A stretch of 64,000 nt of DNA from a virus, in the IMG/VR virus record IMGVR_UViG_3300009124_000005, positions 27,699 to 91,698 of that record; one strand, 5' to 3'. Below are positions 51,184-61,881 of this stretch, one piece after another. The position numbers and the translations under genes were made by a program. Below the pieces are notes generated by a model that was not told where the DNA came from, searched no databases, and saw only the letters and a program-made list of their open reading frames with translations. Positions within the stretch are counted from its first letter, which is position 1. Every line of letters begins with the position of its first letter.

Positions 51184-52203
51184 ATGAACTACGATTCCCA
51201 AAATGATGGTCTGGTAAACTTGCTGGACTTTGCAAATAATCTTGGTATTGTTGGAATAAGAAAAGAAATAAAACCAGATGATTTTCCTCCCATCGAAGAT
51301 GTGATGTTAAGTGAACTCCACATTGATGAGAAATATCAACGACTTCTCAATGAATCTATGATTAAAAAGGCAGGACAGTTCAAACCTGAACTTTATAGTC
51401 CTTTACGTCTTTATCATCGTCCAGACGGAAAATTTGCTATTGTTGATGGACAACACGAGAGTGTATTAGCAGCAATTTACTGCATGAATCCAGAGATGAT
51501 GGCACTTCAAGCACAAGTATTTGAGCATGATTCAAATGCTAGTAACGAAGAATGTGTGGAAGTAGAGGCAAAACTATTCAAAGGAGTTAATGTCAACCGC
51601 ACAACAGTAAGTCAGGTTGCTCAACTTCGCACAGATATTGCTGCTAGTGTTAAAGAAGCACTGGAAGTTCGTAATACTCTAGATGAACTGGGTGTTCATG
51701 TTGAAAAAATTGGTCATCCAGAAGGATTTTCTGTAAAAGGTTATGCTAAACTGATGGAAGCAGTGAATACTTATGAACTTTCAACAGTAAAAGAAGCAAT
51801 CGATTACTACAATCAACTTCTTACTTCCACTAAATCAGCAAGCAAGTGGAAAACTAAAAAGAGTGTTGATCTTCAGGGTTCAATGATTGGAGGTCTCTCT
51901 GCTGTCATTTATCTCAAAAATTCATTGAATAAAGGTACATCAAGACGCACTGGGTTAGTGAACTTTATGGAATCTGAACTCATTGCAAATAAACTCACTC
52001 CCAAAGAACTTGCAGATAAAACCGCAGGAAACACTCAATTTGTGTTGATTGCCCGTCGTTTTGTTGATGAGTATCGTTCTGCTCTTGCATATGGTGCGAT
52101 TGAAGGTGCTCCAATAGGGGAAGATACACTCGGTAACTATGGTTTAGGAGATCCATCTAAAGTTAAGACTGCAAACAATAAAACCGAAGAAGATTCTGAA
52201 TGA
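51184..52203 (+). CDS. ParB/Srx-domain protein
   Basis: A 339-aa protein. Residues about 40-130 show a ParB-like N domain: LSELHIDEKYQRLLN then FAIVDGQHESVLAAI (D88-G-Q-H91). The rest is helical, with no clear DNA-binding motif. Such domains bind nucleotides (CTP/ATP) and serve as adaptor or nuclease parts in phages. It overlaps the Dam-like gene by four bases, suggesting a joint function. Confidence 0.72.
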   Translation: MNYDSQNDGLVNLLDFANNLGIVGIRKEIKPDDFPPIEDVMLSELHIDEKYQRLLNESMIKKAGQFKPELYSPLRLYHRPDGKFAIVDGQHESVLAAIYCMNPEMMALQAQVFEHDSNASNEECVEVEAKLFKGVNVNRTTVSQVAQLRTDIAASVKEALEVRNTLDELGVHVEKIGHPEGFSVKGYAKLMEAVNTYELSTVKEAIDYYNQLLTSTKSASKWKTKKSVDLQGSMIGGLSAVIYLKNSLNKGTSRRTGLVNFMESELIANKLTPKELADKTAGNTQFVLIARRFVDEYRSALAYGAIEGAPIGEDTLGNYGLGDPSKVKTANNKTEEDSE

Positions 52204-53054
52204 AACCTCTGTTTATTTGGGCAGGTGGTAAAACAAAGGTGCTAAAACATTATGCACCTTTTATGCCATCATCCTTTGAAACTTACTACGAACCATTCTT
52301 TGGTGGTGGTGCTATGTTTGTCCATGTGATGAACAGATACCGACCAAAGAATGCTGTGATCAATGACATCAACCCCAGCGTGATGAACATTTATCGTAGC
52401 ATTCGTGATGACTACGATGCATTCACCTCACGTCTAGATGCACTTGAAGCAATATATCTTCCCAAGACCAAGGAAGATAGGAAGAAGTATTACATGGAGG
52501 TGAGGTATCAACATGCCTATGATTATGAGAGTTGGGATACAACATATGAGGCAGCAACATTATACTTCTTGATGAAGACTGGGTTCAACGGTATATGGCA
52601 GATCAACAAGAATACCAACGGTAGGTACGGAACTCCTGCTGGATTGCTGAACCAGAAGGATAAAGTATATGATCGTGATGTGCTCAACTGGTGGCATAAT
52701 ACTCTTCAAGTTGTTGATATCAAGACTGGTGATTGGAAGACTGTAGTTGATACTGATCCTAATGGTTTCTTCTTCTTTGATCCACCCTATCGTGATAGTT
52801 TTGCTGATTATGGCAATGCATTTGGTGAGGATGCCCTATTGGACCTGATCGACTTTGCCGATGCACAAAAAAGAGTTTTTGTTGCCAACCGTGCGGATGA
52901 TGACTGGTTTGATGGTAAATCAAAGTCTTTATCAGTTCATTACTTCAACATAACATACACTGCGGGGCGTAGAAAGAAAACAGAGGACGGATATGCTGCT
53001 AAAAAAGCAAGAGAAATCCTACTACACAAGACAGACCGTGTGACACTAGTCTAA
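52200..53054 (+). CDS. dam: Dam-type N6-adenine DNA methyltransferase
   Basis: A 284-aa methylase of the D12/alpha class. The N-terminal FIWAGGKTK (5-13) and EPFFGGGAMF (31-40) form the AdoMet-binding part, and FDPPY (193-197) is the catalytic motif IV. A typical Dam is about 270 aa. Target GATC is common for the family but not proven here. It could protect phage DNA from host or own nucleases. Confidence 0.88.
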   Translation: MKPLFIWAGGKTKVLKHYAPFMPSSFETYYEPFFGGGAMFVHVMNRYRPKNAVINDINPSVMNIYRSIRDDYDAFTSRLDALEAIYLPKTKEDRKKYYMEVRYQHAYDYESWDTTYEAATLYFLMKTGFNGIWQINKNTNGRYGTPAGLLNQKDKVYDRDVLNWWHNTLQVVDIKTGDWKTVVDTDPNGFFFFDPPYRDSFADYGNAFGEDALLDLIDFADAQKRVFVANRADDDWFDGKSKSLSVHYFNITYTAGRRKKTEDGYAAKKAREILLHKTDRVTLV

Positions 53055-54394: not shown

Positions 54395-55110
54395 TCGAAC
54401 TACCAACTGATTTTCCACATATTCCACCAGAGGGTTATAGTTATGAAACGAAAGAGTTTAAAACAAATATCATTGGCATTTGGATTAGGAATCACTCTCG
54501 GTATAGTTACACTAATGATCCTATCAAATCAATTTGGGGATTCTACAACACCAAAAAACGATGCTACATTGCGCCAATCAATCATAAACGTCCCGGTAAG
54601 ATCGTAACATTAGATAAAACTTCCGCATACAGTGCTATGCCACTCCTCAAACTGGCACTCGACACCACTGATGACGCATCAGTACCTGCTATGATTGATT
54701 CATCAACAAAGGACACCACCTTGACCACCACCTTCACTGACTTTCAAGCACAACAGGATGCTCGTAACAGCATCCAACTGAAGGTACGTGAGTATTCCTT
54801 GATGCTCTGTGATGCTCTTGAAGACAACTTCAAGTCACGTAACCGTGGTGCTCTCGCTGGTCGTCCTGCTCCCGAGTACAAGTTTACTGTAGAGTCTGGA
54901 CGTAAGTATCACAAAATCATGATGACTACCGATGGTGGTTCACGTTCTATTCATGCTTTTGTTGACATGAAAACAGGTGATGTATACAAACCAGCATCTA
55001 TCAAAGCACCTGCAAAGGGAGTACGTTTTAACTTGCTCATCATCACTGATCGTGAATGGTTATTGGAGAATGCTGACTGGGCTGGCGGTTATCTCTACCG
55101 TAGAGGTTGA
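54391..55110 (+). CDS. Possible fusion of two small cyanophage proteins
   Basis: 239 aa. Residues 1-85 (IELPTDFPHIPPEGYSYETKEF...WIRNHSRYSYTN...IWGFYNTKK, ending YSAMPL) look like a stand-alone small cyanophage protein. Residues about 115-239 (FQAQQDARNSIQLK...TVESGRKYHKIMM...VYKPASIKAPAKGVRFNLL) look like another one. A Thr/Asp linker joins them. Function of both is unknown. Confidence 0.6.
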   Translation: MIELPTDFPHIPPEGYSYETKEFKTNIIGIWIRNHSRYSYTNDPIKSIWGFYNTKKRCYIAPINHKRPGKIVTLDKTSAYSAMPLLKLALDTTDDASVPAMIDSSTKDTTLTTTFTDFQAQQDARNSIQLKVREYSLMLCDALEDNFKSRNRGALAGRPAPEYKFTVESGRKYHKIMMTTDGGSRSIHAFVDMKTGDVYKPASIKAPAKGVRFNLLIITDREWLLENADWAGGYLYRRG

Positions 55111-56269: not shown

Positions 56270-56471
56270 CTTACCACTATACTCTCCCTATACTGATGTA
56301 CTGATGGGTAAACTGACAACTAGACAATGGCAACTCATTCATTCTATAGTCACAGATAAACAACAGTCTGTAATGAAAACATCTAATAGTTATACTGAAC
56401 TATCAGACATACTAGACATGTTATATCCTCTTGCTTATCAACATGATACTACTATACTAGGTGATAAGTAA
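56259..56471 (+). CDS. Small protein, unknown function
   Basis: 70 aa (YDLPLYSPYTDVLMGKLTTRQWQLIHSIVTDKQQ), helical. Last gene before the non-coding region. Confidence 0.55.
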   Translation: MNYDLPLYSPYTDVLMGKLTTRQWQLIHSIVTDKQQSVMKTSNSYTELSDILDMLYPLAYQHDTTILGDK

Positions 56472-56546
56472 CTATACAGGTACTCCACAGTTACTATACA
56501 GTAGCTCCACAGTGATACCAACATATCTTAAGAATCTCTTTAGTAG

Positions 56547-56569
56547 TTTTCCACAACTCCTGTGGAAAA
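56547..56569. other. Inverted pair of DnaA-box-like sites
   Basis: TTTTCCACA (56547-56555) and its reverse complement TGTGGAAAA (56561-56569), with 5 bases between. TTTTCCACA is the reported cyanobacterial DnaA box type. It is also a possible hairpin; no T run follows, so a terminator is unlikely. Confidence 0.55.
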
Positions 56570-56600
56570 ACTCTAACTATTCTTAATGTATTAAAAAACA

Positions 56601-56640
56601 TAGGTATTGTGTGATATTGTGCGGTAATGTTTGGTAATGT
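56601..56640. repeat. Four tandem imperfect 10-bp repeats
   Basis: TAGGTATTGT, GTGATATTGT, GCGGTAATGT, TTGGTAATGT, then GCGG. The consensus is NNGGTAWTGT with a one-turn period, as in protein-binding iterons. Confidence 0.65.
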
Positions 56641-56721
56641 GCGGAGGTCTTGTTGGCTTAGCGCCCCAACACTCAAAAGTCAACCCGATGTATGACAGTT
56701 CTCCAAGTGTCCCCCAGACCC

Positions 56722-56750
56722 TTGACAACCACTGGGTTTTCTGTTATTAT
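56722..56750 (+). promoter_or_regulatory. Sigma70-type promoter
   Basis: TTGACA (56722-56727), 17-bp spacer, TATTAT (56745-56750). It would give a long leader of about 100 bases to the gene at 56860. Confidence 0.75.
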
Positions 56751-56803
56751 AGAAATATAGAAAAGACAGAAACTTGACTTTTTGAGTTTTTTGACTTTTT
56801 TAA

Positions 56804-56841
56804 AAATCTTAAATTTTAACATTTTTCAATAGTTAAGATTT
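56804..56841. repeat. 9-bp inverted repeat near start of next gene
   Basis: AAATCTTAA (56804-56812) and TTAAGATTT (56833-56841) with a 20-base AT-rich spacer. It could be an operator or part of a melting region. Confidence 0.55.
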
Positions 56842-56859
56842 AACCTATTCTATACTATA

Positions 56860-57105
56860 ATGATTCTCAAAACATTGAAATATACTGATATCAAATCAAC
56901 AGCTATCAAAGAAATTGATATTAATGGTAAATCTTTGATAATTGTGTTTAGTTCTAGTGATAAACAATATAGTTACACTATTAATGATAGTAACTTCGTA
57001 GAATTGCTCGATAAAACAATCAAACAAGGTGAAAGTGTTGGTAAACTAGTCAATTCTTCTTTGAAAGCAAAGAATATCGAACTAATCTCAACTGATTCTA
57101 AATAA
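56860..57105 (+). CDS. Small protein, KTSC-like pattern
   Basis: 81 aa: KSTAIKEIDINGKSLIIVFSSSDKQYSYTI...GESVGKLVNSSLK. Resembles small KTSC-type domains (S-AI, central beta strands, G---N--I), a family of unknown role in phages and bacteria. Weak match. Confidence 0.55.
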   Translation: MILKTLKYTDIKSTAIKEIDINGKSLIIVFSSSDKQYSYTINDSNFVELLDKTIKQGESVGKLVNSSLKAKNIELISTDSK

Positions 57106-61848: not shown

Positions 61849-61881
61849 AATAAATTATAATATAAACTACAGGAGAATACA

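Follow-up and report, generated by a model that had tools for sequence, protein, structure and literature searches.

The window, meaning the whole 64,000-nucleotide stretch of DNA analyzed here, corresponds to positions 27699-91698 of a 91,698-base virus record; among named phages it is closest to S-CAM3 and S-CAM1, both T4-like cyanophages. The interval 56472-56859 had been described as gene-free in a sequence-only reading of this DNA, and this description holds: the open reading frames inside it are unconserved, 41-60 amino acids long and none of them credible, and S-CAM3 and S-CAM1 have corresponding gaps that are unannotated. The interval and its borders comprise the following features, in window coordinates.

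56472..56859, + strand: intergenic origin-like element running from a box array to a promoter leader, with no credible open reading frame; matching gaps occur in S-CAM3, S-CAM1, S-RIM32, Sf-CH11, S-PM2d and others
56467..56510, + strand: direct repeat of 22 bp in two copies, each with CTCCAC(AG) at its end and possibly a weak site, absent from the earlier note
56547..56555, + strand: candidate DnaA box 1, exact TTTTCCACA; relatives have a box at the same aligned position, in either orientation
56561..56569, - strand: candidate DnaA box 2, exact TTTTCCACA; an aligned box is present in all six box-bearing relatives of an eight-element alignment
56589..56605, + strand: A/T element TATTAAAAAACATAGGT adjoining the boxes, a candidate unwinding site, kept in relatives with and without boxes
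56602..56644, + strand: iteron-like repeats of the GTAATGTGCG type, unit length about 10 bp, varying in copy number among relatives
56657..56683, + strand: 27-bp core CTTAGC-N16-GTCAA, likely a protein-binding site
56694..56711, + strand: inverted motif GACA...TGTC, which relatives have in a fuller form (TGTGACA...TGGCACA)
56722..56750, + strand: sigma70-type promoter TTGACA-17-TATTAT, an 11/12 match with a TG, full -35 and -10
56744..56843, + strand: the 100 bp with the highest AT content in the window, a candidate downstream unwinding element
56860..57105, + strand: 81-amino-acid open reading frame 3' of the promoter, PHROG 4357, function unknown

An IMG/VR search with the protein downstream of the element found no relative, and one with the upstream protein returned two contigs, in both of which another gene comes next. 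Approximately 3.5 kb upstream of the element, 51184-53054 holds a gene that weakly matches ParB and, after it, one for a DNA adenine methylase. No credible RNA element was found in an Rfam search of the region, and the 27-bp core shows no RNA structure (z 0.65).

The inverted pair of TTTTCCACA 9-mers reported by the sequence-only reading is present at its two positions on opposite strands. The window contains three copies of this 9-mer against 0.96 expected, a number reached in 7 of 100 shuffles, so that the copy number is unremarkable by itself; the third copy, at 54411, falls within an open reading frame. What is significant is the 14-bp pairing of the two copies and its recurrence in other records. 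Whole-record scans of 25 cyanophages and T4 (26 records in total), with a pair defined as two boxes within 40 bp, revealed TTTTCCACA-type pairs in 13 of the 26 records against 0.12 expected when the same numbers of boxes are placed at random. In five of the 13 (S-CAM3, S-CAM1, S-RIM32, Sf-CH11, and S-PM2d) two or three exact boxes lie in a gap between small hypothetical genes. The other eight (Syn9, S-SM2, S-SSM5, Syn19, S-ShM2, Syn1, S-RIM2, and DSL-LC02) were matched by shared motifs and not by annotated synteny; a similar position of the element near 48-59 kb adds to the match in all of them but DSL-LC02, which has two exact boxes and two near ones. Many T4-like cyanophages carry two to four exact boxes per element, and a second pair is present in S-RIM32 and S-ShM2. 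In the T4 genome, none of the 23 boxes of the E. coli type (TTWTNCACA) pairs with another within 40 bp. In the S-PM2 record NC_006820 (L160, 17414-19333), the annotated tRNA genes overlap coding genes and reach into the element; no tRNA is predicted by ARAGORN in 1-40000, so these coordinates look misplaced.

The boxes are one part of a module with a fixed order. The core motif lies 3' of the box cluster in the same orientation in 13/13 records, at +32 to +121 (+87 in the window), and reads CTTAGC in 11 of them, TTTAGC in one and CTAAGC in one. When searched as CTTAGC-N6-14-W-N-GTCAA it is always 27 bp long at the element, while most matches elsewhere have other lengths. Alignment of eight elements showed conservation of the A/T element (TTAAAAAAyATAGG across cyanophages), the core and the -10 region. 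The tandem 10-bp repeats of the earlier reading are real and keep a 10-bp register (56602-56638), but they are degenerate. The TGTGACA palindrome does not recur genome-wide: four genomes have it at 0, 0, 4, and 2 loci.

Could the 9-mers form an RNA hairpin or bind some other protein, their likeness to DnaA boxes being a coincidence? The window pair does fold well as RNA (z -3.7). However, S-CAM1, S-SM2, Sf-CH11, and Syn1 have only direct copies, which cannot form this hairpin, and the 9-mer is identical to the oriC box of the host family. A single aligned box position is occupied on the + strand in S-CAM3, S-RIM32, and S-PM2d and on the - strand in Sf-CH11 and Syn1. Across relatives the number and orientation of the boxes vary, as does their spacing (12-34 bp), while the 9-mers stay exact; the boxes are therefore read as protein-binding sites and not as a hairpin, and we regard the coincidental explanation as improbable.

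Metagenomic records extend the distribution. An IMG/VR scan with the A/T-core motif, in which boxes were not part of the query, found boxes upstream in 17 of 23 contigs and none in six, among the matches listed; this is the unbiased figure for box presence. The core pattern as a regular expression gave 46 unique matches, 33 of them with a box, a biased count as many of the 33 came via the box search; the other 13 comprise five box-less relatives and eight apparent chance matches. A scan for tandem boxes returned at least 120 stretches. Among the stretches listed, 25 of 121 scored rows have both core motifs and 95 of 121 have neither, so tandem boxes alone also occur outside this module. Three viral contigs (L066, L099, and L104) combine DnaA boxes with short repeats of the AATGCCT or AATGTG type and are possibly related origins in another phage group. 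Two MAG contigs titled Gammaproteobacteria and Euryarchaeota (L263 and L305) contain cyanobacterial or cyanophage psbA, which is probably binning contamination.

A lack of conserved boxes in relatives had been named by the sequence-only reading as a refuting outcome, and the comparison did not refute the idea: boxes recur in many genera. Some relatives do lack them at the site, which counts against the origin reading. The box cluster is absent from 12 of 25 cyanophages, and six of these, the Synechococcus phages S-CAM4, ACG-2014e, ACG-2014i, ACG-2014j, Sf-CH1b, and S-B43, retain the rest of the element without boxes at the main site. Whole-record scans found no box pair in S-SSM7, S-SKS1, and S-RSM4, the last of which retains the A/T and core motifs, nor in P-SSM2, P-SSM4, and P-HM2, though low-GC genomes of the host family share the box type. 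In the box-less elements (L010, L015, L139, and similar) the slot of the boxes holds TTGGATACTACCCAA or TTCTCCCC...CTCGGTGAA motifs, which are perhaps the sites of another initiator. An exact box with a near-inverted partner lies approximately 1 kb downstream of the main site in S-CAM4 (54134), ACG-2014e (59072), and ACG-2014j (59511), and a second box site at this distance is also seen in S-RIM32 (61859-61880, L225) and Syn1 (59749). This second site is an inverted pair, either exact or with one exact and one one-mismatch box, just before another small gene.

The assignment of TTTTCCACA to the cyanobacterial DnaA box type, made in the earlier reading, agrees both with passages of PMC4674748, which give this box experimental support, and with the host family itself. 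Among 41 host-family genomes dnaN was found in 39; 30 loci were taken and one with an unrecognisable start was dropped, leaving 29, three of which had less than 400 bp of upstream sequence. Counting sites with no more than one mismatch in the 400 bp preceding dnaN, at least one is present in 28/29 regions and at least two in 23/29, with an exact site in 13/29. The 95 sites in total compare with 2.3 in shuffled sequence and eight for the reversed pattern. A cluster of host-type consensus boxes is a criterion for a DnaA-dependent origin and is present in the phage element. Do the phages encode an initiator of this kind themselves? The DnaA C-terminal domain was found in 0/26 phage records, the same search being positive in the host WH7803. 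Pfam gp59 models matched only S-B43, DSL-LC02, and T4, and DnaA was considered as a substitute for a missing helicase loader. This idea was dropped: gp59 is annotated in eight model-negative phages (Syn9, P-SSM4, P-HM2, S-SM2, S-SSM5, Syn19, S-ShM2, and S-RIM2), so the models simply miss cyanophage gp59 and DnaA is not needed to supply a loader.

In WH7803 the only boxes by dnaN are off-consensus (TTTTCCACG and TTTTCCCCA), a point against an origin that uses host DnaA. The exact phage boxes would probably have higher affinity than these oriC boxes. Such a difference would suit a DnaA sink, in which amplified phage DNA titrates host DnaA and blocks host re-initiation in the manner of a small datA. 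However, each cluster has only two to four boxes, always beside the same core and usually beside the same A/T element, and a sink would not require a fixed architecture; this explanation therefore appears quite improbable.

A DnaA-dependent origin also requires an A/T-rich unwinding-type region beside the boxes, and a candidate is present. A DnaA-trio motif next to the boxes, defined in passages of PMC8287927, is a further criterion for such an origin. The strongly AT-rich stretch of the sequence-only reading contains the top 50 bp (0.88, from 56787) and the top 100 bp (0.83, from 56744) of the 64 kb, but at 150 bp several loci are higher. In S-CAM3, S-CAM1, S-PM2d, and ACG-2014e the gap region coincides with or adjoins one of the two highest AT peaks of the genome at 150 bp. 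Nearest-neighbor duplex stability is low at the site and lower at several other loci, so it is not the genome minimum. A change of GC skew, proposed earlier as a check, did not appear: no switch occurs at the site in these four genomes, so that GC skew lends an origin no support. Recombination-dependent replication could erase a shift in strand composition at an origin.

The sigma70-type promoter noted in the earlier reading is near-consensus and recurs in relatives, with a strict match in 8 of 13 complete box-cluster relatives in addition to the window, but promoter-like sites in the region number 11 against 12.9 by chance. Its position, 152 bp past box 2, raises the possibility that the interval is the regulatory region of a strong early operon and no origin at all, with host DnaA acting as a transcription factor upstream of the promoter and tying early transcription to the host cell cycle. 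The occurrence of boxes near another small gene approximately 1 kb downstream in some phages would fit this explanation. However, the downstream gene differs, on inspection, between the group of the window and that of Syn9 while boxes and core persist, and in two elements (L018 and L128) an A-rich leader begins immediately after the core, and no promoter is evident close behind the core. The boxes also lie approximately 150 bp upstream of the promoter, which is far for a DnaA-regulated promoter. Early-operon regulation is thus rather unlikely, albeit with a real share of the probability.

T4-like phages serve as the textbook example of replication that starts from transcription- and recombination-primed origins and does without host DnaA. 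The gene-free stretch is probably a start of virus DNA copying, and we lean, by a slight degree, toward a T4-like cyanophage replication origin that uses the host initiator DnaA. As the element joins a promoter and A/T region, variable repeats and host-type DnaA boxes, it can be read as a hybrid origin, in which DnaA would mark or open the left side and transcription would open and prime the right. Host DnaA would bind both exact boxes, of which relatives have two to four, and open or help to open the adjoining A/T element, or keep it accessible for loading of the phage helicase. The repeats and the 27-bp core would bind further factors, probably phage-encoded. From the early-type sigma70 promoter on the right, transcription would enter the stretch of the region richest in A/T, and the transcript may there form an R-loop that primes leading-strand synthesis in the manner of T4 oriF. 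The comparisons show exact and recurring boxes, a constant module order, the host box type and no DnaA C-terminal domain in the scanned phages; DnaA binding, unwinding, R-loop priming and origin activity are inferred. A broader proposal is that lytic T4-like cyanophages recruit host DnaA to a hybrid origin made of boxes, phage core and R-loop promoter, and that box-less relatives have swapped in a different palindrome at the position of the boxes; we advance it tentatively, at somewhat less than even chances. If true, the choice of initiator would be a swappable module. Within the openly licensed PubMed Central literature searched, no description of DnaA boxes in T4-like cyanophages was found, and the literature found describes no origin for these abundant phages. 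A recurring element with host DnaA boxes offers a precise, testable location for one, and would couple replication of the phage to the control of initiation in its host.

How does this element compare with known systems? Passages of PMC13250531 describe the T5 injection stop signal as containing repeats, palindromes and DnaA boxes, and the same ingredients occur together in the cyanophage DNA. The T5 signal serves a two-step DNA entry, and a genome-entry pause of this kind at the cyanophage element is highly improbable. As T4-like genomes are generally circularly permuted, DNA entry would not be expected to start at one fixed point, and the site lies approximately 50-60 kb into the T4-like genomes in most records. 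The Pseudomonas phage vB_PseuGesM_254 is similar in having Ori-Finder-predicted DnaA boxes and an A/T region, but this is a single-genome prediction in a different phage. Cyanobacterial oriC next to dnaN shares TTTTCCACA-type boxes in short arrays that include inverted pairs, whereas the phage element has no dnaN beside it. T4 oriE is described in passages of PMC3016281 as 12-nt iterons with an early promoter; the cyanophage element likewise has iteron-like repeats and an early-type promoter upstream of baseplate gene 6. It differs in that the T4 iterons are 12 nt long, oriE lies within gene 5, and the passages on oriE include no host DnaA boxes. The idea of synteny with oriE was dropped, the correspondence being only loose, with both upstream of gp6. 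According to the same source, T4 oriF and oriG depend on a promoter with an A/T-rich element behind it in which an R-loop forms, and the cyanophage element, also of a T4-like phage, has a promoter leading directly into a candidate A/T-rich unwinding element. The T4 promoter is a middle-mode MotA promoter while that of the cyanophage element is sigma70-like, and DnaA boxes, absent from those passages on T4 oriF and oriG, are present in the cyanophage element.
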